Positions 7,339 to 52,015 of a stretch of DNA of 64,000 nucleotides are shown one piece after another. Numbering within the stretch: position 1 is the stretch's first letter; every line of letters starts with the position of its first letter. Made by a program: the position numbers and the translations under genes. Source of the DNA: Caenorhabditis elegans (lineage: Eukaryota; Nematoda; Chromadorea; Rhabditida; Rhabditidae). The notes beneath the pieces are model-generated. The model ran no database searches, had not been told where the DNA came from, and saw only the letters and a program-made list of their open reading frames with translations. The stretch is from positions 8,494,001 to 8,558,000 of the forward strand of contig NC_003284.9 of the NCBI RefSeq assembly GCF_000002985.6, in the 5' to 3' direction.

Positions 7339-8149
7339 ATGAAGTTAATTCTCCTTCTCATTGGATTCGCAGCTGTAGCTGTTCAAGGTAAAATCTTCGC
7401 AGTGTTTTGTTTTTAATGGTACGAAATTGTGTAATAAAGCATTGAATATTCTTAGAACACTGAGAAGCTGTAATTTTGTTGAAAAAACTACATACATACA
7501 TGTTAATGTTTGGAATGAAAATGAAAATGAATACTACTCATTCAGCTACCAATTTTTAATATCAGCTGCTTCAAAAATATAATTTACATAGCGTCCCAAT
7601 AAAGTAAATTACTTTTCCAGTCTTCAATTTTCAGGCCAAGACGACAACTGTCCTTCTATGAAATCTCGTAAACATGCGAAATCTGGAGATCTTTATTGCT
7701 GCGATAGCACAATCAAAACTGTTATCAAAAGAGGAATAAGAACGTTGAGCTATTTTGGTGATGACGGGCCACAAACTCTTGGACCAATTGTTCAAGGTCT
7801 GAGCACTTATGTTCAGAGACATTATGGAGTGGCGTACGAAATTGTCCTGGCTCCGAAAGGATTTATTTTGAACAGCAATTACAATGGAAGCAGTGTCTGC
7901 AAATTTGAAACTAACAGCTACACTATGGCTGTTTACGAGACCCCAGAACACGTAAGTTATAGCAAGAAAGACGTAAAAAGCGAGAACATCCTGATAACAT
8001 TTCAGTACGATGTTAACGGTCCAGGAGAGGCCTACTATTACCACTTTGCTGCAAACGACAAACTTCGTATTCCATCCGTTTCTTCGCACCTCAAAAAATT
8101 TTCCGGACTTGTTAACACTGTCACCGAACGAGATGTTTTGAGAAACTAA
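7339..8149 (+). CDS. secreted ground-like domain protein, copy 2
   Basis: Three exons: 7339-7387, 7635-7951 and 8006-8149 (510 nt, 169 residues). The last intron is 54 bp, a multiple of three and stop-free, so the genomic frame reads through it; GTAAGT and TTTCAG mark it as an intron. A signal peptide (MKLILLLIGFAAVAVQG) is followed by a domain with the expected ground-like landmarks: the Cys-Cys of LYCCDSTIKTVI, a helix around VQGLSTYVQRHYG, then YEIVLAPKGFIL and the closing Cys strand SVCKFETNSYTMAVYE. It lies about 420 bp downstream of its paralogue on the same strand, but an acceptor (TATTCAG) before its ATG and the intervening poly(A) signal suggest its own transcript. Function unknown; probably an extracellular or cuticle-associated signalling-type protein by family analogy. 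Confidence 0.75.
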
Positions 8150-13912: not shown

Positions 13913-16900
13913 ATGACTTCTACTATCACAACAGGCATACTTTGCCTGGTGTCGGTACTCCAACATGTATACGGTAGGACTAGAATAATATCAATTTTAG
14001 AGCATACATTTGTATTACAGGAGACTGTTCGCCAGAATTCTTCGCCAGGAGCATCCGATATGATCAGGCTATTGAGATCGATTTTTATTATACAGGGTCA
14101 GTACGTGGGAAATATGAAAATATGAAAAATGCATATAACCGAAAAACTTGATTTTTGTTATCGAGTCTTTCCGATCTACCCACCACCTGTTGTTCTTTGT
14201 TTCAGGATCAATCTTGCCTCGGTGAAAGAATGCGCCGCATTTTGTGCGGGACGTGAATTTTGCAGAAGTGCCGTCTACAACAGCAGAACAAAAACGTGCG
14301 GAATCTCTTACGAGTATACTGTCGCGTGCGCTTCAAGGACTCAACGGTTTAAGGAGTATCAAGTAGAAGATGGACAAGGAACTGACTTGGTGCAGATTGC
14401 ATGTGTGGATGATTGTAGAAATCGAGAAGGAAAAGACACAAACAAAAAAGGAAAGAAGGTTCCAGTAAGTTTCGTAGTTATTTTAATAACTTTGATCTAG
14501 TGTCAAGAAATTTCAAACTATCTTTAGAACATGTTATCATTATAAAATAATTAGTAAAACTTTAACAAGTTATACAGTGAGCACATTCACTTAATTTTCA
14601 ATTAGACCACATCTTGTCAAACAATTTTTTAACTTTTATCACTTTTTTGTAATACTTCAAGTTGGCAGTAAATTGGGAAGGCGGCGGAGTAAGTCTTCAG
14701 TTTCTCAGCACTTGCGCCTAGCGTCTTGCCCAAGTTTTAATTTAAAAAAAACTTGAACCAAAAGTTGGCAAGATTTATTTTAGGTTTTACTAAAATTGAA
14801 CAACGTTTTGGACCACTATCAACACTGAAGTTATAAGTTTTCTGAAAATATGTTAAAAAAACTGTTTTCAAAAACTACTTTCGGCCAAATTCAAGACCAT
14901 CAAAATAACTCTTTGGTAATAAATACAATTGCATAAATCGGGATGGAAGTGATGGAAACTTTAATTTCTACGAAAGCATTTAATTTTTGTTATTAGGTGG
15001 GGATCATCACTGGCGAACCAAATGATGGGAAGACAAAAGAGACATTAACATCATCATCATCATTATCCGGCAACAATGTGATCACCGATCCACTAACAAC
15101 TCCATCAGTCTCCAAGTTATCATCCACATCTGCATCGTCGAGTACTCCGGAATCGGATCGCCCACGCGCCAATGGATACGTCACCCGTCTCATTCTCGCC
15201 AACATCAGTGGTCTGCAAGAAGGTAGAACCGGATCGGTTGAACCGCTCACTCTCCAACAAAATGACGCAAGTGTCGCAAAAGGAGGCAAAACAGGAGATG
15301 GTAATAAAGGTGAGAACTCACTTTCTTCACGCTTCACTAGAGTACTGGGACAGTTGACATAGAGTAAAAGTGATGATACTTTCCATTGAAATAGTAATCC
15401 AGTAGACTTGTATGAATAGACAAATTTATGTTTTGCAAAGTGATCGAATAAGCAAGAAAACCCATCAAGTTAAATAACGTGTTTTTTTTTTGATTAAATA
15501 ACTCCTTACATACACTTTTTCACTTGAAATCATGCCGTCTGTGCAACAAAAAATTAATTGGACTGTGGGGAAAAATGTGTTATTTTAAAAACCATAATTT
15601 CAATAAAGAATGGACTGAAACTAGTGTGTATTTTGCTTTAAATGTTTCTTTGAAAGTTCAATATTTAAAAATTATTGAAAAAGTAGTAATAATTGTGTGG
15701 TATTTTTGCTAAATTCATGATTTGCCTGCAAATCTGCTCCAAATTTTTTTTGCATGGTGTAAATTATTATAAGTCTGAGATTAAACTCATTTTAAAATCT
15801 AACAAGTTAATGTTTTGAACCTGAGTTTGTCTTGCAAGAAACAATGAAATAATTTCAGGAAAAGGACCCGTCTGCTACCGAACAATTCGTCATCGTTACC
15901 TTTTGGGAGCCGACTTTGAGGAGCATGATGTGGATTCAGTGAATGATTGTAGATGTCTCTGTGCCGCAACTTATTTGCCAAACAACAAGAAAAATAAGTG
16001 CATGTCTTTCCAGTTCCGCAATAAAACTTGCACACTGAACAAAGGAAACCATTTGTAAGACTATTAAAATAACTGATTTTGTTGTAAAACTTGAAATTAC
16101 AGAGGACAATATGATCTTATCGAACAACGGAAAACTTTGTACCAATACGTTGGGTGTGATCCAGAGAGTAAGTTGCTTGTCGGGTAATTATTATTCCCAT
16201 TTTCTGAATTTCAGTCCTACTAGAAACTGCCTCATCAAAGTGTCCAAACTTCAAGCCAAAGAGTGCTGAGAAGAAAAAGCCAGATACCAAAAAGGAAACG
16301 CCTACGAAAAAACCTAAAGTCGAGCTAGTAACGGCTAAAACAGTAGAAGGAGAGAAGAAAGAAACTAAGAAACCAAAATCTACTACAAAGAAGCCAACAA
16401 AAACTGCCGCAGCAAGTACAAAGAGACCGCCAACTACCGAAAAGCCAACAGCCACTACCGAGGAAGTGAAATCTACAACAGCTGCTGCGAAACCATCTGA
16501 AAGACCAACGGGACACGATGAGACACCGGTGGAGGAAAATTCACTAGAAACAAAATCATCTGAAATGATTATTAGTAAGTTGCTTGTGTTGATTAATTCA
16601 AATAGTTTGGTTAGTTTGATTATTTAAGAGAGAGATGGATGTTTCGAGGTTATTGATGATCACTTGATGGTTAGCGTTGCTGGTGGTCTTGAACACGACA
16701 TGTCAATTGAAGAATGTCAGTGCATGTGCGCTAACAGCAAGTAAGATTTTTAGTTAAACAATGACTATTTTTAACTTACAAATTTAACTATTACCTACGT
16801 TTCAGAACATCTAGACGATATGAATTCCAATGTAGATCCGCAACTTATTATCATGCTGAGAGAGACTGCATCCTCAATTTAGAGGACAGAAATATCAAAA

Positions 16901-19899
16901 GCAAACTGTTCGAGAAACAGTTCACCGACGTTAACGTTACATATATTGGTCTGGCCTGTGAAGTTGATGAGACGGTCAAAAGCTTGGGATCTTTAGCCTT
17001 GACTGAATGCCGAAGAAAGGTTGAAGCCACTACAGGAGAACCGACAAAAGAAACAAGCACAAAGAAAAATGGATTGAAATCTGATGATTGCTATGTAGAG
17101 CTTAATGATTTTGTCTTGGAAGGTACTGCAATCGCTGTTGAAACTGCAGTCACACCAGAGGTATTGTATATTTTTAAGAGAGATTTTACTTGTTTTTTTT
17201 TGCAGGAATGTAAGTGTAAATGTGCGGAGGGTCATAAACTGTATGGTGAGGAATGTGCATCATTCTTGTACTACTACGACAGCAAAACTTGCCTCATTAA
17301 TAAACAAAACAGGTCTCAAAATTTAATTTTTACAAATGAAAATGTTTGTTTTTACCCAGATTCTCAAATCCAGAAAAGTTCAACTTTGTTCCAAGCATCA
17401 ATCAATCAAGAAGTTACTTCGAGTGGACATGTGCAAACAAAGATGAGGCAAGACACAAATACCGTGCCGATGTCTGTAAAGTCGAACCTGAAAAAGTTGA
17501 TGGTAACTTGTTGAACAATGAAAGTGAACCAGTGGTAGTAAAGCAGGACGTTAAAATAACGGAGGAGCCTGTTCCAATGAAGAGATTAGATGAGAAAGCA
17601 TTCTTAGACAAGATCGATCAAGTTGTGGAGTCTCAAGAAGAAACTGAGAAAAAGAAGAAAGTGACAACTAAAAATTCTGAGCATATTTTGGATACCGATG
17701 AAGTTCTGAAAAAAATTGAGAAAGTAGAAGCCACTTCAACCACTGAAACAGAAAAACCAACAACAGAAACAACGCCAGCAACAACCACAGTCACAACAAC
17801 CACTGAAGAAACGACAACACCAAAGAAGCAAGAAGTCAAAATGAAGCATATGGACGAGAAGGCTTTAATGGAGAAAATCAACGAGGCTTCTGAAAAATTG
17901 GAAAAAAGTCAGGAAGTGACCGAAGAGGTGACTGAAGCAACCACGGAAGCTATCACAACTACTGAAGAATCAACAACAACTGCCAAACTAATTTTAAACA
18001 AGAAAAGTGAGATTTTTTAATGTTTCGTTATTAGTTATGCGCCCACTGCTCTTCTTTGGCAATTCATGTCTCAGTTATAGTTGTATTCCAAAAATGTACT
18101 CGTTTTAAAATTGCATTGTAGAAAAATATTTGATACGTAAATTTTTTTAGTAACTGAAAATAGACCAGAAGAAATAAACTAAGTAGAGCAATAGGGGGGG
18201 GAGGGGGGGGGGGGTGCGAGGCTTATATGAAAAATACAGTAATGAAGTGCGAAAGATAGGAGAACCAAATTGCCGAGTATTTCTTGACAATAAGTAGTTG
18301 CTTTTCAAATGACTTATAAATTAAATGTTTCAGAAAATCCAACTAAAGACAGTGGGAGTGTTTCATCTGCCTCCGGAAATGGTAAAACTGTTGCAATGAA
18401 GAAAACCGATCAAAAAACCATTGAAACTTTGTTGAAAGCAAAAATTCCGGAAAGCAGCAACGTAGATTCTCAAGAAAAAGAAGATATTAACAAGGATCCC
18501 CGCCTTGTTGAAATGAAAAAGGTGGAAGCGCAAGTTTTGGAAAAACTAGCAAAAATGGAGATCACTGAGTCAACCGCCCCGGATAGCACTAGTTCAACTA
18601 TTCCTGAAAACATTGAAACTGAAAGTACCTCATCGGAAATTACAAAACAGACAGCTAAAACATCAATGAAATCTAGCATACCGGAAGCTGAAGGGCTCGA
18701 AGATGATGAAGTAGAGACTGATATTGGTCAAGAGCTTTCAACTGGTCTTAATGATGCACCAGCAAGCGTCCCAGCACCAGAGAGCACAATTTCAATTACT
18801 TCAACAACAGAAAAAGTGACAACAACTACGACAACACAGTAAGAAGGATATAAGTTATAACTAATAAGCATGTATCATTTAAAAAAACTTCAGAGCAAAA
18901 GCGAGTGGAGTGAAGTCTCACAAGTTTGATGAGAAAATTGACAAGAGCGGAATGCCACTTCCAAGAATCACTACCACTACAGAGCCATCAACTACTACTG
19001 CTGGATACCCTCCAGCAGGAAGATGCTCATATTCTGCACTCTATCAGACATCCTTCCTTGGACGCCGTCTTCTGAAGGCAGTTCGTGTGAAAACTCCGGC
19101 TGATTGCTTCGCAGCTTGTTATGCATTGAGATGTAGATCGGCCAATCTCATTGCACAAGGTAGGCAATAATCTGTTATAAACTAGTGGTCAGGCGAAAAG
19201 AATTAACCTTTTTGAACCTGATAAATTTCACGACATCTAGGATAAGTTTGAAACATTCGCTCATGCGATTTTGCCGCATTTGTGGCCATTAACAGACAAT
19301 TTTTGTAAAAATATGTCTGTTACTCAAATAGCACGCAAAATAAATACAACTCAGTAGTTGAAAAATTATGACTTGATGCTGAACGATGTTCCAAAAAAGC
19401 GTCCAAATACAGAATGATAAAATTATTGCTCACAAACTCTTTTTGTAAAAGTTACAGCAGGAAACACTTGCCGAATTGATTTTTGGTTTCGAATATAATG
19501 TATCTTTTTTTTTGCTAACAGTTTTCTGTAATAACAACTTGATGTTGAGATAATTGCTAATTCAATGACAAAAACGTACCCAACAGACTGATTTACGGAA
19601 AAATAAAACCCATGGTTTATATTTTGATAGTCGATCAATTTTTGAAACACCCTCAATCTATTTGTATTTATCATTGGTTATCACATCAGTTTGATTGAAA
19701 AAATTACAATTTTCAAAGATTAATGCTAATGACTATTGCGCTGTGAACCCTCAAGTTTTAATAAAATTTGATTTCAGGAGAATTCAATAGCTGTGAACTT
19801 TACCGAGATTCTCTCATTGATTATCGCCGACCTGATATGATTGGTTACGACGCTTCAACAGTATACTTCGATGGCATCAACTGCGATGGTACCCCGTAA
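13913..19899 (+). CDS. large secreted protein with five PAN/apple-like modules and Thr-rich linkers
   Basis: Fourteen exons: 13913-13973, 14021-14096, 14206-14464, 14997-15309, 15859-16054, 16103-16167, 16215-16574, 16629-16740, 16806-17160, 17206-17312, 17360-18006, 18334-18838, 18894-19159 and 19778-19899 (3444 nt, 1147 residues, frame kept throughout). Residues 1-21 are a signal peptide; no C-terminal TM or GPI signal is seen. Five Cys-rich modules of PAN/apple type lie at about residues 22-117, 240-325, 447-540, 575-665 and 1062-1145. Each has the pattern 'SxxxCxxxC ... C.(S/F) ... tC.L'. Between modules 2 and 3 is a Lys/Thr/Pro-rich linker. Between modules 4 and 5 is a roughly 400-residue Thr/Glu/Lys-rich linker with a repeated MKxxDEKA-like motif and many TTT/TTE runs suited to O-glycosylation. 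PAN modules bind proteins or glycans; an extracellular-matrix or cuticle-lining role is inferred. Exact junctions near 14096 and 16629 were chosen by frame. Confidence 0.8.
18194..18214 (+). repeat. poly-G tract G8-A-G12
   Basis: Monotonous guanine run broken by one A, in the 327-bp intron between exons 11 and 12 of the PAN-module gene. On the sense strand it would be in the pre-mRNA and could form a G-quadruplex. Confidence 0.95.
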
Positions 19900-34321: not shown

Positions 34322-36840
34322 ATGAGCAGCCGAAGCACCACGATTGCTTTCCTCTTCATCGCCACCCTTCTTGTCTTCCAATGTGTTTCCGCTCAATCAA
34401 GGTAGGTTAATTTGATGTCTAGGGTTCAGGTGCTGTGATGAGCCAATTGTTAAACCCCAACTGATCAAAACTGGCCATTTGTTCTTGATTGTGATCATTG
34501 CTTCGGCTATTGAGACTATCATGGACTTCCTAAAAAGAAAAGGCGCTAGGACTTAAAGTAAAATTATTAAAAGGATTTTAAAAAAGGCTGACATAAATTA
34601 CCAACTCAGACAGAAAAAAAAACACAAAAAACCAAAACTCTAACGGTGCGTGAAGGTCTAGATTGAAACAACAACGGAACCTATTAAAGTCGTAGGTACA
34701 AGCAAATTATCTTTTTCAGAAAAACTAAATACTAATACAGAAATAGTTTCAATATCCAAATTAAATCATCGTTGTACAGCTAATTGCTCAAAAGTGACGC
34801 ATTTTTCATCATGCACTTTATTTCATCATCATTTTCGTAATTTTCTAATTATACAAAGATGCAATGGCGTGATTAACACACATACTAGATTCTGTTCGTT
34901 TTCTTCGGCATTTCACTTTACTACTAGCATCTTGTGCGCTTCCTACGAACTTATACCCCGGTCTCCTCCCTTTTTTTCATTCTCATGAGCATCGTAATGT
35001 GACGTGAGTTTATTCTTTTTGGGGGATCCCATCTTGTCTGTTGGACTCTTGGTGTCGGATGAAGCGGAAATATCAATCAGCCATTCAAATTCAATTGCGA
35101 GTACTAGGAGGCGCGCTTTTTGCTTATTCGCTTTGCATTCGATGCTTCCGGTGAGATGCACTTTGACCCATTCTTTCCATACTATTGTTTAAAAAATTGG
35201 AACAACTTTGTTGGGAGGCCAGAGTCTTCAGCAAGGAAAAAATAGAGATGACGTTATAAACAAAGAATGGAAGTGTTCAATGACAATATCTTTTTGAAAT
35301 TACTTTTCGAAATACTCAGATTTTTAAACTGTTTGTTTTGTTTTAAAGCTTGGAATTTCCCATTCAGAACATTGAATTCCAAGCATTGAAAACAAAAACA
35401 AAAGTATGTCAAACAATAAAATAGTTGAGGACTAGTCTCTAACCTAATAGAAAAGCGAGGGTGGAATTCATAAAATTAGCTTCTTTGACCTTCAATGTAA
35501 CACAAATTAGCATTCCGTTCTCGATTTATCCCGCTTCTTTAATATCAGGCAACTTTGAAACTTCCCTGTTTCATTCTTAGAAAGTCACTGGAGGGATCAG
35601 AGCACTCACAAAACATGTCTCCTTCAAAAAGTTGCCACCACTTTTTTGCTCTAGTCGTTCAATACAATTGGTAAATGAAGCGTTTAATTTTGCACTTGGC
35701 GTGCTAACATGACGCATGTGCTCATTGAGTTTGGAAAAGTAAAGTAGTTGGTTAAGCGACAAAAAGGAAAATGTGGTAACCTTCTTATCTTTTCATTTTT
35801 CAATTATTTTTGAACAATTATATGCAGAAATGTAGGTCGTGGTGAACCGAAACACAATATTAAAAATATGATAAATGGTGGTAATTAAAATAGACACATT
35901 TTCAATATTGACGTGTGAAATACGTAAGAAAAAAGACAGGAAAGGTTCTATGACATTTTAAAAAAATAAAACAACGGTCTCTTTGTTCACAAATATGGAC
36001 TTTTCAATCTAATAACACCGAATATTTTCAGTGCCGAAGACGCGGACTACCTTGAAAAATACCAAAGAATAGCACGAGCACCAAAGCCAAAATTCATCCG
36101 ATTCGGTCGTGCAGGAGCCAAGTTTATCAGATTTGGGCGATCAAGGAACACTTGGGTTAGTATTTCAAGAAAATAATTTTTTCAGTGAATCACTGCATAA
36201 GTCGAAAACCAAGGTTCTGAAAAGCTTGTTTCCTTGTGTTTGTTGTACACATAGCTTAAGCTGCTACCATTGTAGAAAATCCTATTCGACCCCCTTATTA
36301 CGTATGCAAATTATATTCTGAAAATCTTGATTTTTATCTGTTTTGATATTTGCTGAGTCTAGAGATTTTTTTGTAATGCTGGGGAGCACCTTAAAAAAAT
36401 TGTTCTAGTCGTATATGAACATTTACAAATTTCGACTAATAAGTATATGATGAGACTAATAAAGGATAAACGATGCCTGTCATTTCCAGCGAAGACGGAA
36501 TACTTTTAAGTCACAAGAAAAACGTCAGAATTTCATGAAAGATCGACGTGACTGAGTACACACTGCATTACAAGCTATTAGCTTTCTGAAATATTAAAAA
36601 CCCCGCTCCCCCACTATCTTTACAAACGGAATACATATATGAAAATATCACGCTAAAAAGCACTATGTCATATGCCAACACATGGATATGAGTAATGACG
36701 CATCCGAAACGTCAACTTCTCATGTATACTAACCATTATGCCATCATCATTTATTGAATTTTCAGGAAGATGGATACGCCTCACCATCGGTCAACGAGCT
36801 CTACGTTAAACGTGGAGCCAAATTCATCCGATTCGGCTAA
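34322..36840 (+). CDS. flp-5: FMRFamide-like neuropeptide precursor FLP-5
   Basis: Three exons: 34322-34401, 36032-36155 and 36766-36840 (279 nt, 92 residues); a 1.63-kb first intron. Residues 1-24 form a signal peptide (TTIAFLFIATLLVFQCVSA). Three peptides can be read directly: APKPKFIRFG followed by R, then AGAKFIRFG followed by R, and after a KR dibasic site GAKFIRFG directly before the TAA stop. Each Gly would be converted to a C-terminal amide, giving KFIRF-amides. The set matches the known C. elegans flp-5 products, hence the symbol. Released from dense-core vesicles, these act on G-protein-coupled receptors. The last peptide ends at the stop, so it needs no C-terminal cleavage. The last codons of exon 2 (SRNTW) and the start of exon 3 encode a spacer. 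Confidence 0.93.
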
Positions 36841-40726: not shown

Positions 40727-41078
40727 TTAAAGATTATTGTAGAGTTTGTTGCAACCACTTCTCTTGAATTCTTGAGTCTTCGCTGGTGTGGTTTTCAAGC
40801 AGCATCTGAAGTCAGGGTCGGTAGTGCAGGAACCATCGTAGACAGCAGCACAGTTATGAACACAGAGATTATAGCAAGTCTTGTTGGTATGAGTGGCAAA
40901 ACTGATCCATGGAGAGCAGTATGCGTAGGATTCACCACCATTGACACCAGCACAGAATTCTTGACAGAGTTGCAAGGTGATGGAGCTGATGGCAGACACA
41001 AGGCAAAGTGCGACGAGGATGCGAAGGAACTGAAAGAGTATTTAATTATTGCATTCAAAGCAGAAAAAAACGTACCAT
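40727..41078 (-). CDS. secreted ten-cysteine protein, copy A
   Basis: Two exons on the minus strand: 41078-41076 (the ATG alone) and 41029-40727, with a 46-bp intron starting GTACGT; 306 nt, 101 residues. After the Met the protein reads FLRILVALCLVSAIS (signal peptide). The mature part has ten cysteines, an NKT glycosylation sequon and a Cys-Cys pair (DFRCCLK). It ends KRSGCNKLYNNL, like copy C and unlike the other five copies (KTSGC). Paired head-to-head with copy B. Extracellular; function unknown. Lies in the left arm of a 1220-bp inverted repeat except for its last codons. Stop TAA. Confidence 0.85.
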
Positions 41079-41468
41079 GTTGAGGTATCAGTTGAATGCT
41101 GATGTTCTCCCAGCACTGCCAAAAGATTTTATAAATTTTGTTTCACAGTAGGAGTCAATTTTATTAAACTAGATGAAATCGTTCATGAACAGCACAGTAG
41201 GGAATCCAGACTCCAATTAAAATGTTCCAATATGTTGCGAGTTATTGAACGACAAACAAAAAAGTTCATGAACAAACTGTCAGCTTGTCTATTATTTAGA
41301 CTTTTTTTGTTAAGTCATCCTACGCCCCAAAACTCGAAATCTAACAATTCTATTCACATACATCAGCTACCAAAATTTCTAATACTTATTGGATCCAGCT
41401 CAGAGAATTCGACTATAAATAATGTCCAGGAGATTCATAACTCATCAGCATTCAACTGATACATCAAC
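41079..41468. promoter_or_regulatory. shared divergent promoter of Cys-rich pair A/B
   Basis: 390 bp between the two start codons. TATA-like sequences sit about 50 nt before each ATG: TTTATAAA at 41128-41135 for copy A and TATAAATAA at 41414-41422 for copy B. Each is followed by a common leader CATTCAACTGATA just before the start. Identical spacing recurs in the D/E and F/G pairs. Confidence 0.7.
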
Positions 41469-41819
41469 ATGGTAAGTCTTTTTTGCTTTGAATGCAATAA
41501 TTAAATACTCTTTCAGTTCCTTCGCATCCTCGTCGCACTTTGCCTTGTTTCTGCTATCAGTACCATTACCTTGGAACTCTGTCAAGAATTCTGTGCTGGT
41601 GTCAACGGTGGTGAATCTTACGCATACTGCTCTCCATGGATCAGTTTCGCCACTCAAACCAACAAGACTTGCTATAATCTCTGTGTTCATAACTGTGCTG
41701 CTGTCTATGATGGTTCCTGCACTACCGACCCTGACTTCAGATGCTGCTTGAAAACCACTCCAGCTAAGACTCAAGAATTCAAGACTAGTGGCTGCAACAA
41801 GCTTTATAATAATCTGTAA
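41469..41819 (+). CDS. secreted ten-cysteine protein, copy B
   Basis: Exons 41469-41471 (ATG only) and 41517-41819; 45-bp intron GTAAGT...TTTCAG; 101 residues. Signal peptide FLRILVALCLVSA, then a mature chain starting near ITLELCQEFCAGVNGG, with cysteines in ELC, EFC, AYC, KTC, NLC, HNC, GSC, RCC and SGC: ten in all, enough for five disulfides. The mature sequence is identical to copies E and F. Glu replaces the Gln found before the first Cys in A, C, D and G (LELC versus LQLC). Poly(A) signal AATAAA near 41851. I do not recognise the family; a small secreted, disulfide-stabilised protein is all the sequence shows. Confidence 0.85.
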
Positions 41820-41981
41820 GAAAAACCATTTGTCATCTTGATATATCATAATAAAACATTGCATCGGAAACATTATTCTTGAATGCTTATAAAAATTATT
41901 ATTCAGTTGTTCTTGAAGTAGTAGTAGTGAATGTAATCTCATATAGTGTCAAACATAGTGACCGTAATTCCAGTATTAGTT

Positions 41982-43107
41982 GGATCCAATAAATATTAGG
42001 AATATTGGTTGACTGGTATTCATAAAAGCGCAGTAGAGAACAGTTATAATTAAAAAATCTGAACAATGACTTGTTGCGTGGGTGCTAACTTTACTGTAGT
42101 TATTTTCAAAAAAATTAAATTGTTTGAAACAAGTTAGTATATTGATATATTACTTCACAAGTTGTCTTCAGAATAAAAATAAAAATTTTCAATTACCGAT
42201 ATTAAATATGTATGTATCTAAAATATTTATTTATTTACATCAGAATTTGAGACGCTTGATGTTGTTTCAAAAACTAGATTTCACGAAATAATAAAATATA
42301 GTAGTAGTTTTGTAAAATATTATAAAAAAAATAATTTATTCCACTTATCGTTATAGTTTTGGTTCTATCTATCTTGCGATCCAGTAATATTACCTATGAT
42401 ACTTTTGCATGCGATAAGAAAGATAACAAAAACAATCATATGTATAACTTCGAAATTGTTCAAAATGCCGTAAGGAATTATCAATGTGTTCCACCGTAAA
42501 TGTACACCTTCGAAGATACACACCTTCGAAGAGATGGTGTGTATTGTCGCAAAAACTTTTCAACATACATCTAATCTTCAATTGTAAAACTGATGTAGAG
42601 TCAGATCAGCTTAGTTAGTCAGGTCACATCCCTTCAGATCCACGTACATGATTAGCTAAAAGTGCTGAAAATCGCACTGTCCTAGGTTCTACTTTGTAGC
42701 ATCCACGTTTTTTTTGATTTTTAGTTTCAAGTTTGTCATCTGTGCAGTAGTTTTGGAAGTCTATGAAATTGTTCGGTCAACTGTCAAGCTGTCTCTCAAC
42801 GAGTAGTAAAAAATTTTTAATGTTTTTGTGGAAATTATATACGATAATAAATATCAAAGTAAACAATCAATCCGATATTCAATTCTTTTAGTTGTTTCTC
42901 TTTGAAATAACTACAATAAAGTTAGCATTCAAGCAACGAGCCATTTTTCAAATTTTTTCATTATAACTGCTCCCTACTGCGTTATGCATATACATCAGCT
43001 ACCATTATTTACAATATTCCAATATTCATTGCCTCAAGCTGTGAGAATTTGCTATAAATAGTTTCCAGGAGATTCATAAATCATCAGCATTCAACTGATA
43101 CATCAAC
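41982..43107. other. spacer between copies B and C
   Basis: AT-rich; contains a short direct repeat CACCTTCGAAG at about 42507 and 42522. The last 60 bp carry a TATAAATA (43053-43060) and the CATTCAACTGATA leader of copy C. No gene. Confidence 0.55.
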
Positions 43108-43458
43108 ATGGTAAGTCTTTTTTGCTTTGAATGCAATAATTAAATACTCTTTCAGTTCCTTCGCACCCTCGTCGCACTTTGCCTTGTTTCTGCCATCAGC
43201 TCCATCACCTTGCAACTCTGTCAAGAGTTCTGTGCTGGTGTCAACGGTGGTGAATCCTACGCATACTGCTCTCCATGGATCAGTTTTGCCACTCATACCA
43301 ACAAGACTTGCTATAATCTCTGTGTTCATAACTGTGCTGCTGTCTACGATGGTTCCTGCACTACCGACCCTGACTTCAGATGCTGCTTGAAAACCACACC
43401 AGCGAAGACTCAAGAATTCAAGAGAAGTGGTTGCAACAAACTCTACAATAATCTTTAA
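43108..43458 (+). CDS. secreted ten-cysteine protein, copy C
   Basis: Exons 43108-43110 (ATG only) and 43156-43458; 45-bp intron; 101 residues. Same signal peptide (FLRTLVALCLVSA, with Thr instead of Ile as in copy D) and ten cysteines. C-terminal KRSGCNKLYNNL is shared only with copy A. It is the one member of the array without a head-to-head partner. TATAAATA lies 48 nt before the ATG and AATAAA at 43496-43501. Function unknown. Confidence 0.85.
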
Positions 43459-43997
43459 AAGTGTATTTGTTTATTAAGTTTTTGTACTTTGATGCAATAA
43501 AGATTTTATTCAAAATAACCTAACTGTAGTTTCAAAATTTGATTTCTACTAAAGTTTCGATAAATTCAGAAGAAAAATACCGATAAAGAATTAATTGAAT
43601 TCAAGAATTCAAGAAATCAGAATTCAGAATCGATAAATTCATTATTGCTGCTCTCTTCTGTCTCGGCTCAGAATTAATGACTTTTTAAAACAGAAATTTC
43701 TCTTTGGATGGCACCATGTACCAAGATAGTTTGTTTTGAACAAAATCTCTATTGAATCAATGTGCAAAAACGACTGAAAAACATATACGCATTCAAAGAT
43801 TGTTGTAGAGCCGATCGCCGATCGTCGAAAAATCACAAAAAGACGGTGATAGCCGATTGCCGCTCTGCCCTAATTGAAACCCTACGATATGACTTTTACT
43901 ACTGTTCCTTGAAAAAAATTGAATATATTGTGTAAACAACAAAAGTTAGTATTTTCGATAAAAATATGTATTATATCATGGCAGTAGAGTGTTTCTC
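43459..43997. other. spacer between copies C and D
   Basis: Holds the 3' UTR of copy C, repeated GAATTCAAGAA-like stretches at 43598-43630, and a CG-rich patch GCCGATCGCCGATCG at about 43809 of unknown nature. No gene. Confidence 0.5.
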
Positions 43998-44349
43998 TCA
44001 CAGATTATTATAAAGTTTGTTGCAACCACTAGTCTTGAATTCTTGAGTCTTAGCTGGAGTGGTTTTCAAGCAGCATCTGAAGTCAGGGTCTGTAGTACAG
44101 GATCCATCGTAGACAGCAGCACAGTTATGAACACAGAGGTTGTAGCAAGTCTTGTTGGTTTGAGTCGCAAAACTGATCCATGGAGAGCAGTATGCGTAGG
44201 ATTCACCACCATTGACACCAGCACAGAATTCTTGACAGAGTTGCAAGGTAATGGTACTGATAGCAGAAACAAGGCAAAGTGCGACGAGGGTGCGAAGGAA
44301 CTGAAAGAGTATTTAATTATTGCATTCGAAGCAGAAAAAAACGTACCAT
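43998..44349 (-). CDS. secreted ten-cysteine protein, copy D
   Basis: Minus strand: exon 44349-44347 (ATG only) and 44300-43998, with a 46-bp intron starting GTACGT; 101 residues, same signal peptide type (FLRTLVALCLVSA) and ten cysteines, LQLC at the mature N-terminus, C-terminus KTSGCNKLYNNL. Head-to-head with copy E. The D/E unit is a direct, ungapped duplicate of the A/B unit at an offset of 3271 bp, but with many point differences in D. Confidence 0.85.
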
Positions 44350-44739
44350 GTTGATGTATCAGTTGAATGCTGATGCTCTCCCAGCACTGCTAAAAGTATT
44401 TATACAATTTGTTTCACAGTAGGAGTCAATTTTATTAAACTGGATTAAATCGTTTACGAACTGCACAGTGGGGAATCCAGACTCCAATCAAAATGTTCCA
44501 ATATGTTGCGAGTTATTGAACGACAAACAAAAAAGTTCATGAACAAACTGTCAGCTTGTCTACTATTTAGACTTTTTTTGTTAAGTCATCCTACGCCCCA
44601 AAACTCGAAATCTAACAATTCTATTCACATACATCAGCTACCAAAATTTCTAATACTTATTGGATCCAGCTCAGAGAATTCGACTATAAATAATGTCCAG
44701 GAGATTCATAACTCATCAGCATTCAACTGATACATCAAC
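44350..44739. promoter_or_regulatory. shared divergent promoter of Cys-rich pair D/E
   Basis: 390 bp between start codons, collinear with the A/B promoter. TATAAATAA lies on the E side (about 44685-44693) and an A/T-rich TATTTATA element on the D side (about 44396-44403). Confidence 0.65.
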
Positions 44740-45090
44740 ATGGTAAGTCTTTTTTGCTTTGAATGCAATAATTAAATACTCTTTCAGTTCCTTCGCATCC
44801 TCGTCGCACTTTGCCTTGTTTCTGCTATCAGTACCATTACCTTGGAACTCTGTCAAGAATTCTGTGCTGGTGTCAACGGTGGTGAATCTTACGCATACTG
44901 CTCTCCATGGATCAGTTTCGCCACTCAAACCAACAAGACTTGCTATAATCTCTGTGTTCATAACTGTGCTGCTGTCTATGATGGTTCCTGCACTACCGAC
45001 CCTGACTTCAGATGCTGCTTGAAAACCACTCCAGCTAAGACTCAAGAATTCAAGACTAGTGGTTGCAACAAGCTTTATAATAATCTGTGA
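44740..45090 (+). CDS. secreted ten-cysteine protein, copy E
   Basis: Exons 44740-44742 (ATG only) and 44788-45090; 45-bp intron; 101 residues, protein identical to copy B over the mature part. It differs from B in the stop codon (TGA instead of TAA) and the 3' UTR, which shows that similarity ends just past the coding region. A poly(A) signal AATAAA follows about 25 nt after the stop. Function unknown. Confidence 0.85.
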
Positions 45091-46054
45091 GAGAAACATT
45101 CTACTGTCTTGATGTAATAAAGGATTTCATAAAAAATACATTACTTGTATTGTTCATAAAACATTATTAAATCAGATTTTCAGTTTTCAGTATGCGTAAT
45201 CAGGTTGCGTTTCATTTGGTAGGAATACCAACAAAAGCAGTTCAATTAGGGATTGCAGTCTGATTTATTTATATTTTTTATGAAACAGCTAATTTAATAA
45301 AATTTCTAGAAAATTTAAACAAACTTTCTACAACTAAAATGGTTCCGACGTCTATTGTATCAAGTTAAATTGAAGTTTTAATACTTGTAAGCTTCTGTGA
45401 TCTCCTGGAGAGAAGCAACTTAATCGTCTTGGTGATTTATTTTTTACCAAAACGTTTTTCATTCTTGAAAACCGAAAAGTTACTCTGAAAAGCACAAGCC
45501 TTTTTTGTCTACTTACTTACTTACTTTTATTCACGGATTACCAATCCAAGCCTCACCATCATTTTCGGTTATGGATTGCTTAACCTAAAATGGCATTTCT
45601 CTTAATTAATTGAACATTTTCAGTAAATCTAATACATTGTCGTAGTCAAGTTTTGTGCTCAATTAAGCACTGAGAGCGGAACACTCACCACTAACGCAAA
45701 TACCGTATTTCCTCTTCTAGCCTTGAACCACTATTGTTATTGTATTTCTACGAGAAATTCGAAAATAAGTTTCGCAGCCACTAATGGTCTTGTAGCCTCT
45801 AATATTCGAGCACCGATTTTTTTTTCCACACCAGTTTCAGCAAATGCGTCATTTTTTGGGTAATTAGTCTTGATAGCTTTCAAATAGCTGATCGGAAAAT
45901 GTTGTATCTTTCATAGTTTGAAAGGTATCAAGTTGAGTTTTCTACAAGCATTGGTCACTTTTCCAAAATTATCGGGCGATCGAAAAGACAATAGTTGCCT
46001 CTAATGGGCTTGAAGTCTCTATTATTTTTGCATCCCGACGGGCAACTGAAGAAT
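45091..46054. other. spacer with possible transposon remnant
   Basis: No gene. A (CTTA)n-like microsatellite lies near 45511-45527. Between 45775 and 46030 a phrase of the type CCTCTAAT.. plus GGTCTTG/GGGCTTG recurs, suggesting a degenerate dispersed repeat. Confidence 0.4.
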
Positions 46055-46198
46055 TGTTATGTATTGAGGCAGAACGAGGAGGCGAAGACGAGTAGTTTAT
46101 TATTACATTAAACTAAGGAATTAATAAGTTAGTTAGAGAGTTCACGTTGTACGATCTTCTTAGCCACGTCGTGGGTCAATACACGTTGATACTCAACA
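46055..46198 (-). repeat. LTR (3' LTR in element orientation)
   Basis: 144 bp partner of the LTR at 46829-46972; preceded on the minus strand by the polypurine tract at 46199-46210. Confidence 0.85.
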
Positions 46199-46828
46199 TC
46201 TCTTCTCTTCAATGACAAACGATTGCTTTGATCAAGAGCATATCCACCGATGTCTTCTAGAAGTTCTTCTGGGGTTTCTTCCGGAACACGACAATGTGTC
46301 CGTATATCCTCACGGATTCAGCTAATCCTCGACACATGGTCCCTCGGTGTTCACATCATCCAATTGCGAGTTATCCAGTGCTACGTACACCTCCTTATCC
46401 AGTGTTTCTTACACCTCCTTATCCAGTAATACTGACACCTCCTTCCCGTACCAATTTTGATGTCCTTCCCACCTTTATCTACAGACTAAGATAAAATTAG
46501 ACCCACTCTTGAACCATCCATTACGGATATACTGATTCCGCCTGTTTACCAGCATCCTGACGTTTCACTGTACCGGAGTTGCTGATTATGTGTCATACGT
46601 CCGACATCTGAGCATCTGGAACGCATAGGATGCTGCCACTCGCATCTTCCCGAGACCTGAACGATGATTCCTTCTTCTTCTTTCCGACTTCAATCCAGAA
46701 GCCGCTCCTGTCCACCATGACTGCAACTGCAGAGAGCACGGCAAGTGCCTCTTTCCCGAAACTGACAAGACTTGTTGCTAGCAAATCGACAGCAGGCAGC
46801 AGTGAGCCCGAAAGATCCTGATCGCCAC

Positions 46829-46972
46829 TGTTATGTATTGAGGCAGAACGAGGAGGCGAAGACGAGTAGTTTATTATTACATTAAACTAAGGAATGAATA
46901 GGTTAGTTAGAGAGTTCACGTTGTACGATTTTCTTAGCCACGTCGTGGGTCAATACACGTTGATACCCAACA
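46829..46972 (-). repeat. LTR (5' LTR in element orientation)
   Basis: 144 bp, TGTTGGGTATC...ATAACA on the minus strand. It differs from its partner at 46055-46198 at four positions by eye (about 97% identity). Confidence 0.85.
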
Positions 46973-47145
46973 GTTGCATGCAAAACTAATACTGGAATTA
47001 CGGTCACTATGTTTGACACTATATGAGATTACATTCACTACTACTACTTCAAGAACAACTGAATAATAATTTTTATAAGCATTCAAGAATAATGTTTCCG
47101 ATGCAATGTTTTATTATGATATATCAAGATGACAAATGGTTTTTC

Positions 47146-47496
47146 TTACAGATTATTATAAAGCTTGTTGCAGCCACTAGTCTTGAATTCTTGAGTCTTA
47201 GCTGGAGTGGTTTTCAAGCAGCATCTGAAGTCAGGGTCGGTAGTGCAGGAACCATCATAGACAGCAGCACAGTTATGAACACAGAGATTATAGCAAGTCT
47301 TGTTGGTTTGAGTGGCGAAACTGATCCATGGAGAGCAGTATGCGTAAGATTCACCACCGTTGACACCAGCACAGAATTCTTGACAGAGTTCCAAGGTAAT
47401 GGTACTGATAGCAGAAACAAGGCAAAGTGCGACGAGGATGCGAAGGAACTGAAAGAGTATTTAATTATTGCATTCAAAGCAAAAAAGACTTACCAT
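47146..47496 (-). CDS. secreted ten-cysteine protein, copy F
   Basis: Minus strand: exon 47496-47494 (ATG only) and 47448-47146, 45-bp intron; 101 residues. It is the inverted-repeat counterpart of copy B with the same protein and the same 3' flank. Head-to-head with copy G. Function unknown. Confidence 0.85.
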
Positions 47497-47886
47497 GTTG
47501 ATGTATCAGTTGAATGCTGATGAGTTATGAATCTCCTGGACATTATTTATAGTCGAATTCTCTGAGCTGGATCCAATAAGTATTAGAAATTTTGGTAGCT
47601 GATGTATGTGAATAGAATTGTTAGATTTCGAGTTTTGGGGCGTAGGATGACTTAACAAAAAAAGTCTAAATAATAGACAAGCTGACAGTTTGTTCATGAA
47701 CTTTTTTGTTTGTCGTTCAATAACTCGCAACATATTGGAACATTTTAATTGGAGTCTGGATTCCCTACTGTGCTGTTCATGAACGATTTCATCTAGTTTA
47801 ATAAAATTGACTCCTACTGTGAAACAAAATTTATAAAATCTTTTGGCAGTGCTGGGAGAACATCAGCATTCAACTGATACCTCAAC
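47497..47886. promoter_or_regulatory. shared divergent promoter of Cys-rich pair F/G
   Basis: 390 bp, the reverse complement of the A/B promoter, with the same TATA-like elements and leaders. Confidence 0.7.
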
Positions 47887-48238
47887 ATGGTACGTTTTTT
47901 TCTGCTTTGAATGCAATAATTAAATACTCTTTCAGTTCCTTCGCATCCTCGTCGCACTTTGCCTTGTGTCTGCCATCAGCTCCATCACCTTGCAACTCTG
48001 TCAAGAATTCTGTGCTGGTGTCAATGGTGGTGAATCCTACGCATACTGCTCTCCATGGATCAGTTTTGCCACTCATACCAACAAGACTTGCTATAATCTC
48101 TGTGTTCATAACTGTGCTGCTGTCTACGATGGTTCCTGCACTACCGACCCTGACTTCAGATGCTGCTTGAAAACCACACCAGCGAAGACTCAAGAATTCA
48201 AGACTAGTGGCTGCAACAAGCTTTATAATAATTTGTGA
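47887..48238 (+). CDS. secreted ten-cysteine protein, copy G
   Basis: Exons 47887-47889 (ATG only) and 47936-48238, with a 46-bp intron starting GTACGT; 101 residues. Inverted-repeat counterpart of copy A up to 48203. Past that point its last 35 bp match the B/D/E type (ACTAGTGGCTGCAAC...) and give KTSGC instead of KRSGC. It is therefore a mosaic, as expected from gene conversion or a recombination breakpoint inside the gene. Stop TGA. Confidence 0.85.
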
Positions 48239-49180
48239 AAGAAGGACTTTGCTGTCTTGATATAATGAAGGTTTTCATCAAAAACGTTTTTTGTCACTCA
48301 CACAATATCATTAAATTTGTTTTTCTTACTAGAAGGAAGTGGATGTTATCTCCTGGTTTGCTGAAAATTATTTGCAATATGTGCCAGTACTTGCTGCTGC
48401 TTAATTGACTCCTGATGCTCAATTGTTTATTTACAGTACACACTTCTAGGAAATAGCCAAAAAGTAATGTAGCTATAGTTAAATAAAAAAAATAGAAAAT
48501 ATTGAGTAAAGAGCAATTCAAGGCCGGTGAAGTATTTGACTAGATGACCGACGTCGATGCAGAGCTTATCAAAACGGACTTTTTCATTTTATAAGCATCA
48601 ATCAGTGGTTATCACCGTGTTACAGATACATTTTACAGGAAAGTATGTATTCGTATATGTAATTGAAATACGGTCATCTATTTGGAGTATAAATTTGTTT
48701 CAGAGTTTCCTCCATAAATGTTTTCAATTTTTTTTTGCGAAAAAAAGAATACACTTGCCTTGTTAAAACATAAAATAAAACATATAAAATAATAAAACAT
48801 AAAATACTTTATACTGTGCCCTAATATTATTAACTGTTCTGCGGCACGTTCCTATTCAAATGACGATGGTGTCTCAAATACTTTATTTCAAAGGTTCAGC
48901 AATCTATTTTGCTACTAAATTACACACATCTACCAATAATGCATACACTTTTTTTAAAAATAGATAACAAAAACGGTGACACAAACTTAAGGAAGAATGA
49001 AGAAAAAACAATGAGAATTGAATGGGAGGGACGTTGAGGCGCGCGAATCTTAATAAAACGGGGAACGAAGGCAAACTGGTGACAGTTACAGTGTTGCATG
49101 GGCTGTTGATGAAAAATAGAGACAAAAAACAAAGTTTTTCGCAATTAGGGGACTATACAACTTGGGAGGGAATTCATTGT
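48239..49180. other. intergenic between Cys-rich array and sdha-1
   Basis: Mostly AT-rich. On the minus strand AATAAA (plus-strand TTTATT at 48882-48887) is a candidate sdha-1 poly(A) signal, about 325 nt past its stop. Open frames here lack splice support. Confidence 0.5.
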
Positions 49181-49209: not shown

Positions 49210-52015
49210 CTAATAGGAGCGGACCTTTGGTGGCACCCAGTCGGTTTCGCTTTTGTCGAGAGTAGTGTCAATGACTGGACGATAGTCAAGTGAAACCTCT
49301 CCTGTTTCGATGTTCGATCTGATGATCGAATGCTTGCGCCAGTGGTCCTTCAACTCCTTCTTGGTCTGTCCCTCCAATGGCTTGCTGTAGTCGAGCTCGT
49401 CGAGTCTGTCAGGGAAGTCGTCACGAGCGTGGGCTCCACGGGATTCCTGAAATTTTGATGTCAGAAATTTGTTTCCCAATACGTTTTCCATTCATTTCTT
49501 TTTGAAATGATAATTTAATTAAAACGTGAACTTTACTTACATTTTTAAGCTTACTGTTAGAAACTAAGCCTGAAATGGGCGAAAAGGATCACGTGAAACA
49601 CAACTATTCATATTTTTGGGCCAGGTATGCTATACAAGTACCTAAATGTGTATTCAAACCATACCTCTCTGTTCTCAGCGGCAACGATGGTTTGGGTAGC
49701 GTTAATGAGCAAGTTCTGGAGCTCGAGGGTCTCAATGAGATCCGAGTTCCAGACGAGTCCCTTGTCAGCAACGTTGAGATGAGCTTGGTCCTTGTACAAC
49801 TTGGATAAGACCTTGACTCCCTCCTTCAAGATATCTCCACGACGGAATACGGCGGCGTGGTTTTGCATTGACTTTTGCATGGTGAGACGAAGCTCGGCAG
49901 TTGAGATGTCTCCCTTGTTGTGACGGAGTTTGTCAATGTTGGCAACGGAGGCCTCTCCGGCGTTCTTTGGAAGTTCTGGAACTCCAACTCCGGCAGAGGT
50001 GTTCTTGAGGATGCTGAAAAATAATAGTATAAAATTGTCCATAAAACGGTGGTTTTCGTTTTTTTAATTGTCTTGTTGGTGATGCCAACCAGGTACAAAT
50101 ACGCAGATTTTTTCGTTTAGCGCTATCTCCGATTAAAATAATCATACTCTATAGAATAAGCTCTTACTCAATAGCGCATGCTCTTCCGAAGATGACCAAA
50201 TCCAAAAGGGAGTTGGCTCCAAGTCTGTTAGCTCCGTGGACAGAGTGAGCTCCGCATTCTCCTGCAGCATAAAGTCCTGGAACGACTTCATCTCCCTTTT
50301 TGGGTGTGTAGTTGAGAACTTGTCCCTTATAGTTGGTTGGTACTCCTCCCATATTGTAGTGAACGGTTGGAATAACTGGGATTGGTTCCTTGGTGACGTC
50401 AACTCCGGCGAAGATCATGGCTGTCTCAGAAATTCCTGGCAATCTTTGTTGAAGTTGCTCTGCTGGAAGATGGTGCAGTTGGAGGTAAATGTGATCCTTG
50501 TCTGGTCCAACTCCACGTCCCTCCATAATTTCAACAGTCATCGAACGAGACACGACGTCACGGGAGGCGAGATCCTTGGCGTTTGGTGCATAACGTTCCA
50601 TGAACCGTTCTCCAGCGGAGTTCACCAAATATCCTCCTTCTCCACGAGATCCCTCAGTGATCAAGCATCCAGCTCCATAGATTCCAGTTGGGTGGAATTG
50701 AACAAACTCCATGTCAGAGTTGTTGATTCCAGCACGAGCAGTCAAAGCAGTTCCTGTAAATTATTGTAAATGTGTTGTTCAAACGTTGAAATTTACATAC
50801 CGTCTCCAGTGCAAGTGTGAGCAGATGTGCAAGAGAAGAAGGCTCTTCCGTATCCACCAGTAGCGAGAACAGTGTTCTTTGAGCGGAAACGATGAATAGT
50901 TCCATCTTCAAGATCCATGGCGATGACTCCGACACAGACTCCGTTCTCCATGATGAGATCTAGGGCAAAGTACTCAACAAAGTAGTTGCAGTTGTATTGG
51001 AGGGAAGCTCCGTAGAGGGTGTGGAGAAGAGAATGACCAGTACGATCAGCAACACAGCAAGTTCTGAAATTGATTTTGTTTTAGATATATTTGGATAGGG
51101 AAGTTGTTTTTAACGGAGACGGGGAGGCATTACAATTAAAATATTCTGATTAAGTTGTATGAATATAACTAGAAATTACTCCATCTTAAACATGACTTGC
51201 GCCTCATAAAGTTTCATTTTTGTTAATTAAATTTCCGATAAATAACTTCGATAGCACAAATTTAAAACTTTACTCGTTAGTATTTCATAAAACTTTCAAA
51301 CCTGTGAGCCTGTCCTCCACGTCCAAAATCGTTGGATTGTCCTCCGAAAGCACGCTGGTAAATTTTTCCATCGGTGGTACGAGAGAATGGCATTCCGTAA
51401 TTCTCAAGCTCAATGACAGCTCTCTCGGCTTCACGAGTCATGTAGTGAATGGCATCCTGATCTCCGAGCCAATCGGATCCTTTCACAGTGTCGTAGAAAT
51501 GCCAGCGCCAGTTATCTGGGTTCATGTTTCCTAGAGCAGCATTGATTCCTGAAAAAAAATGTCGAGATATTATTGAGGGAAAACTGCTAACCTCCTTGAG
51601 CTGCGACTGTGTGAGATCTGGTTGGAAAAAGTTTGGTGATAACAGCGGTCTTAAGTCCTCCTTCGGCAAGTCCCATAGCGGCACGGAGACCAGCTCCTCC
51701 GGCTCCAACAACAACTGCGTCGTAAGCATGATCGACGACCTTGTATTGAGCAATATCGGATCGCTTGGCATCACTGAAATATCAACAGTGAATTTTCGAG
51801 AATTTCTAAAAAATTTTCCTTTTTTTTTGAATTTACACTTGAAATTTTGGCCTTTTTCAAGTTCATTATTGACTTTCTTTGATTTATATGTTCAAAGTAT
51901 GTACTAAATTTCCAAACTCGACATCTTCCTGATCTTACCTGTGGTTTGCAGCGGAAAGCGAAACAGAACGGGCGGCGACCGTGTTACGGAGGCCGTTGCT
52001 GGCGGCTCGGAGCAT
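49210..52015 (-). CDS. sdha-1: succinate dehydrogenase flavoprotein subunit (complex II)
   Basis: Seven minus-strand exons in reading order: 52015-51939, 51773-51592, 51548-51302, 51063-50801, 50753-50168, 50013-49665 and 49446-49210 (1941 nt, 646 residues, normal for SDHA). It oxidises succinate to fumarate in the mitochondrial matrix and passes electrons to the iron-sulfur subunit and ubiquinone. An Arg/Ser/Ala-rich start ([20 protein letters not shown]) is the targeting peptide. The dinucleotide-binding motif [13 protein letters not shown] follows at about 46-58, and [11 protein letters not shown] carries the covalent-FAD histidine at about residue 80. [20 protein letters not shown] is the active-site region. 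[12 protein letters not shown] and the C-terminal WRKH...YRPVID...VPPKVRSY are also canonical. An acceptor (TTTTCAG) ends 6 nt before the ATG, indicating spliced-leader addition. Gene order with flp-5 supports assignment to C. elegans sdha-1. Confidence 0.96.

Follow-up and report, generated by a model that had tools for sequence, protein, structure and literature searches.

Seven near-identical genes for a small, cysteine-rich protein form an array at positions 40727-48238 of the 64,000-nucleotide stretch of Caenorhabditis elegans DNA analysed here (assembly GCF_000002985.6, contig NC_003284.9, positions 8,494,001 to 8,558,000; hereafter the window), on a contig that we take to be chromosome X. 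The array probably represents one secreted protein that has been kept in many copies by the duplication of gene pairs and by conversion between copies, under purifying selection. By this account, whole head-to-head pairs would have been duplicated, often as mirror images, and gene conversion or unequal exchange between the copies would then have overwritten parts of them, while purifying selection would have kept the protein almost unchanged. The chief outcome would be many copies of essentially one product, that is, dosage. The family and its arrangement in pairs are already known, and a sister cluster is in print; what is new here are two mosaic genes (C and G), a relic promoter, and a tally of the clusters, three in all and confined to one chromosome.

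All seven genes of the original prediction, which had described them as near-identical copies encoding 101 residues with ten cysteines, were found by a genome search with the protein and by gene models built from splice signals alone (genes A to G, Table 1). Each consists of two exons: an exon 1 that is only the ATG, a 45-46 nt intron opening with GTAAGT or GTACGT and closing with TTTCAG, and an exon 2 of 100 codons. Over exon 2 the 101-residue proteins share 95-100% identity (21 pairwise comparisons), and the expected identity of some mature sequences is borne out by B, E and F, which share one, and by A and C, which share another, when counted from residue 20, before which we infer signal-peptide cleavage. 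The N-terminus is hydrophobic, and the protein is presumably secreted. Its mature part carries ten cysteines, in the pattern C-x3-C-x11-C-x13-C-x3-C-x3-C-x7-C-x7-CC-x15-C, that probably form five disulfides, and there is one further cysteine in the signal peptide and one NKT N-glycosylation sequon. The ten mature cysteines and the NKT are unchanged in 18 of 18 aligned copies, an alignment that comprises the 20 matches in the genome minus two degenerate ones.

No family had been recognised for this cysteine pattern, but all seven copies match Pfam DUF7772 (PF24977) with E-values from 8e-48 to 3.2e-47 and scores of 159-161 bits, against a curated cut-off of 25 bits, and in every copy the match covers profile positions 1-99 of 99, signal peptide included. 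The PF24977 entry has no function attached, so family membership explains nothing about activity. Other cysteine-rich Pfam families (ShK, the ET module, defensins and others) were absent from a scan of gene B at E<=10 that returned DUF7772 only, weak matches above about E=0.1 being mostly filtered out. Kinship with CPG4 (chondroitin proteoglycan 4, PF15481) was considered and rejected: a genome-wide profile search at E<=10 gave 11 places, none of them in the three clusters described below, and the gene B scan held no CPG4 match at E<=10. AlphaFold2 models were unusable (mean pLDDT 58.9 from a single sequence and 47.5 from five window copies), a Foldseek search with the single-sequence model gave 42 matches at E<=10 and none at E<=0.001, and a sequence search of solved structures gave a single chance-level match (E=1.7).

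Six of the seven genes lie in the divergent pairs A/B, D/E and F/G, and in all three the ATG-to-ATG distance is 391 bp, exactly as predicted. Over the 392-nt stretches from ATG to ATG, A/B and F/G have no mismatches and D/E has 15 to either. Pair F/G repeats pair A/B in inverted orientation, with 6 differences in 1,249 bp, all of them within 40739-40761, which leaves a longest identical inverted stretch of 1,220 bp; D/E is 96% identical to A/B over 1,100 bp, with one gap. Because nucleotide E-values among the copies fall to 0 and the identical inverted stretch is this long, the likeness within the array is far beyond chance. With three further divergent pairs in a second cluster and the published precedent of F42F12 (PMC1803023; statements from this and other papers refer to excerpts of their text), these relations uphold the proposal of the pair as a unit of duplication. 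Judged from these alignments, the constant 391 bp reflects recent copying, and no constraint on spacing is needed to account for it. If the exact figure was meant to imply more than recency, it does not: a fixed 391-bp constraint is ruled out by the pairs of the other clusters, whose ATGs stand 280, 898 and 1726 bp apart in the second cluster and 1148 bp apart in one divergent pair (Q/R) of the third.

Within a window pair, the two sides differ. Genes A, D and G have one type of promoter, which we call alpha, and B, E and F another, beta, and the two types share only 49-52% identity over -140 to -46 when gaps are counted. Gene C joins the two: its promoter is beta-like (91%) and its intron is beta, yet over exon-2 positions 101-300 it differs from A at 0 of 200 positions and from B at 13, while over -140 to -46 it is 50% identical to A, with 47 differing columns. 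Gene G is A-like as far as exon-2 position 248 and B-like from position 268 onward. Runs tests on sites at which A and B differ (20,000 shuffles, P floor 5e-5) gave, for -105 to +299, 8 runs in 42 sites for C (P=5e-5), 2 runs in 43 sites for G (P=5e-5) and 11 runs in 40 sites for D (P=0.002); for intron and exon 2 only (22 sites each) P was 0.017 for C, 5e-5 for G and 0.076 for D. In trees, C groups with A by coding sequence (support 0.85) and with B, E and F by promoter (0.56). Because the mosaics C and G, the runs tests and the trees agree in direction, conversion or unequal exchange between copies appears likely, as has been proposed for F42F12 (PMC1803023). It could instead be supposed that the pairs were simply copied very recently, with no conversion, and that their likeness is a matter of recency, as the identity of A/B and F/G over 1,220 bp and the single gap between A/B and D/E in 1,100 bp might suggest. 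We consider this unlikely, given one gene whose promoter and intron are beta while its body is alpha, and another that changes type at its 3' end; for the same reason whole-pair duplication by itself falls short of a complete account.

That C is the one unpaired gene holds for the array as it stands, but C may once have had a partner. To its left, the minus-strand stretch 41978-42110 is 83% identical to the C promoter over 94 nt (E=3e-22) and 87.5% identical to the B promoter over 32 nt (E=1.7e-6). It adjoins the inner end of the A/B arm, and the genome search reported no coding match there. This stretch is likely the promoter of a head-to-head partner of C that has since been lost, and the array may comprise four pairs, one of which has lost a member. 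Short stretches resembling the 3' flanks of C and D occur on the opposite strand at 43724-43788 and 48486-48516 and are possibly further remnants of lost copies. The transposon-like repeat at 46052-46978 has two 144-bp direct repeats near its ends that are 97% alike, and partial matches to it number at least in the dozens across the rest of the genome.

Protein search (E<=1) and profile search (E<=10) both gave 20 matches in the genome, all on the window's contig and in three clusters: seven copies in the window, eight at 12.342-12.361 Mb (cluster 2) and five at 14.524-14.530 Mb (cluster 3). Within cluster 2, the copy at 12342289 has lost the last cysteine and the sequon and shows no ATG-plus-donor start within 160 bp upstream, and the copy at 12353571 is truncated. 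Adjoining this truncated copy, direct repeats at a spacing of ~210-225 bp occupy contig positions 12353772-12355027, and beside cluster 3 there is a reverse transcriptase-like frame at 14531231-14532079 (PF00078, E=2.8e-11). Mirror-image arms are present in clusters 2 and 3 as well (1,700 bp at 97.5%; 809 and 738 bp at 90-91%). Cluster 2 flanks a 3-oxo-5-alpha-steroid 4-dehydrogenase gene, fitting F42F12.3, and its three divergent pairs, the first ~12 kb away from the other two, match the published layout of F42F12.1/.9, F42F12.10/.6 and F42F12.7/.8 (PMC1803023). Cluster 2 is F42F12.

Zhao et al. (2007; PMC1803023) described the F42F12 genes as divergent paralogous pairs within inverted repeats, noted that such pairs tend to duplicate as one entity, and discussed both gene conversion and selection on structure for them; the excerpts contain no mention of C03G5, the clone to which the window's neighbouring genes belong. 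Pairs homologous to those of F42F12 number four in C. briggsae, of which three keep the inverted repeat, and three in C. remanei (PMC1803023), so the family, though not necessarily the window array, predates C. elegans. The window array resembles F42F12 in family, contig, divergent pairs within inverted repeats and duplication pair by pair, and in A/B, D/E and F/G it has the divergent near-identical neighbours that mark the pairs of Zhao et al.; it differs in being a separate cluster, in the 391-bp spacer common to three pairs, in the unlike sides of those pairs, and in its mosaic genes. A further likeness is to two sets of chaperone genes, hsp-16 and F44E5.4/.5, the latter presumably hsp-70. 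These pairs too are near-identical copies in inverted repeats, for which gene conversion has been proposed (PMC1803023; PMC3966223), but they encode heat-shock chaperones, whereas the window promoters contain no GAAnnTTC site.

For F42F12, Zhao et al. proposed that the inverted structure is itself functional, for example as a cruciform-forming bidirectional regulatory region, and is selected as such (PMC1803023). Homologous inverted-repeat pairs in three species speak for this idea (PMC1803023), as do the four intergenic regions tested from clusters 2 and 3, which are 59-67% identical to their own reverse complements against 52-53% for shuffled sequence (five shuffles each). The intergenic regions of the window, however, are weakly self-complementary (58-60% against 51-53% shuffled), clear likeness between a pair's two sides is confined to ~26 bp adjoining each ATG, and the spacing of pairs across the family ranges from 280 to 1726 bp. 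As an explanation of the array it is very unlikely. The published cut-off for an inverted-repeat intergenic region, 50% identity to the reverse complement (PMC1803023), is already exceeded by shuffled sequence in the scoring used here.

Nor do the window pairs lend support to the shared bidirectional promoter that had been proposed. Within 300 bp upstream of the ATG, TATAAA is present in 17 of 18 copies and an ATCAG start-like site in all 18 (in gene B, TATAAA at ~41414 and ATCAG at ~41444 precede the ATG at 41469), and with the two sides of a pair as unlike as they are, nearly every gene seems to have its own TATA-type core promoter. Between the start-like site and the ATG, most copies show by eye a small dyad of the ATCAG...CTGAT type (e.g. 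41444-41460); we set it aside, since its core letters lack covariation by eye and copy Q breaks it. A screen for motifs present in at least 60% of copies per cluster, from -300 to -71 (A, B and C for the window, six copies of cluster 2 and five of cluster 3), passed a single 7-mer, the A/T-rich ATTAAAA, and no 8-mer. None of the GATA, DAE, SKN-1-like, HLH-30-like and heat-shock patterns, with self-complementary ones counted double, was common to the three clusters; the window promoters do carry TTCnnGAA sites, except for that of gene C, but neither the six cluster-2 copies nor four of the five in cluster 3 have them.

Selection on the protein was gauged from NG86 estimates of nonsynonymous (dN) and synonymous (dS) divergence over exon 2. 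Between B and a cluster-2 copy (L), dN was 0.031 and dS 0.455; between B and a cluster-3 copy (O), 0.195 and 1.021; and within cluster 3 dN was 0 to 0.004 and dS 0.08 to 0.14 (four of ten pairs tested). A degenerate copy, H, gave 0.069 and 0.149 against copy I, indicating weaker constraint. Because dN is far below dS, the intact copies, on these estimates, are under purifying selection and not diversification. The fraction of presumed optimal codons was 0.51-0.56 in eight copies tested, compared with 0.57-0.63 in three pieces of sdha-1, 0.29 and 0.32 in two other exons of the window, and a median of 0.27 and 99th percentile of 0.49 in random 300-mers. Codon use and the genes' own core promoters suggest appreciable expression, and the copies may be co-expressed; as a working model of function, dosage is the most likely.

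The original prediction leaned instead towards gut, defence or environment. An environment-facing effector family, acting in gut lumen, cuticle or pharynx and amplified for defence, would fit genes that are multi-copy and encode a cysteine-rich, presumably secreted protein. The TATA-type promoters, a usual feature of regulated genes, count in its favour. So does the nature of the other two example loci in PMC1803023, which are both heat-shock genes, HSP16 being named there. Yet the dN/dS estimates show constraint and no sign of an arms race, WGATAR is found within 300 bp upstream in none of the seven window copies, ATTAAAA was the only 7-mer to pass the per-cluster threshold, and no other Pfam family matched gene B at E<=10. 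We find such a role improbable, and its link to gut or defence unsupported.

Several points weigh against one protein maintained for dosage by pair duplication and conversion. The array genes are known here from sequence alone. Dosage predicts that most copies are expressed, and D and G have no canonical AATAAA within the 90 bases that follow exon 2; the codon bias may stem from shared ancestry rather than from current expression. As for exchange between copies, the tree supports for C are modest, the runs tests take linked sites as exchangeable and make no correction for A and B having been chosen as references, the signal in D is weak when coding sites are taken by themselves (P=0.076), and C could equally be explained by a single unequal crossover in place of conversion.

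Table 1. Coordinates of the array genes and associated features within the window
Feature	Position	Strand	Remarks
Gene A (DUF7772)	40727..41078	-	ATG 41078, 46-nt intron, exon 2 41029-40730, stop 40729-40727; alpha promoter
Gene B	41469..41819	+	ATG 41469, 45-nt intron, exon 2 41517-41816, then stop; beta promoter
Gene C	43108..43458	+	Mosaic: beta-type promoter and intron, alpha-type coding body
Gene D	43998..44349	-	Alpha promoter; coding sequence mixed
Gene E	44740..45090	+	Beta; exon-2 protein same as B and F
Gene F	47146..47496	-	Beta; exon 2 identical to B in 297/297 nt compared
Gene G	47887..48238	+	Alpha to exon-2 position ~248, beta-like tail after
A/B intergenic region	41079..41468	.	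A core promoter on either side, each with TATAAA and ATCAG
D/E intergenic region	44350..44739	.	15 mismatches to A/B over 392-nt ATG-to-ATG stretch, gap-free
F/G intergenic region	47497..47886	.	Identical to A/B region, inverted
Left arm of 1,220-bp perfect inverted repeat (pair A/B)	40762..41981	+
Right arm of perfect inverted repeat (pair F/G)	46984..48203	-	Outer end calculated from arm length
Relic beta-type promoter	41978..42110	-	Likely leftover of C's lost divergent partner
Interspersed repeat, transposon-like	46052..46978	.	5 bp from inner end of F/G arm

The array lies between a flp-5-like and an sdha-1-like gene. Window positions 36087-36817 encode peptides of FMRFamide-like type with KFIRF ends, which we take to be flp-5 (C03G5.7); minus-strand frames at ~49213-51600, one with a FAD_binding_2 match, are presumably the succinate dehydrogenase flavoprotein gene sdha-1 (C03G5.1). 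Passages on C03G5 in the excerpted literature concern C03G5.7 as flp-5 and C03G5.1 as sdha-1. No paper naming DUF7772 or PF24977 was found, and a search for the names C03G5.3-.14 turned up C03G5.7 alone, both within main texts, with supplements and subscription papers beyond the search. Elsewhere in the window, three frames at 14126-19167, perhaps of one gene, match the PAN domain, two of them above the Pfam cut-off, with Thr-rich stretches between, and a Ground-like domain (PF04155, E=2.8e-12), presumably of a hedgehog-related nematode family, lies at 7592-8146. Neither Rfam at gathering scores nor a scan for tRNAs found anything in the window.

It is tempting to see in this X-confined family a conversion system, in which mirror-image pairs at three loci would template one another within each cluster, keeping the product constant at high dose while the promoters (alpha, beta and the mosaic C) are shuffled. 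This is distinctly unlikely, but if true, regulation could change without change in the protein. The present analysis supplies a genome-wide count for a conserved, presumably secreted protein, with 20 matches in three clusters on one chromosome, and bears on an open question of worm genomics, why some paralogs persist as palindromic pairs. The alpha and beta types, the mosaic gene and the relic promoter are markers by which gene conversion could be read directly from the sequences of wild isolates.

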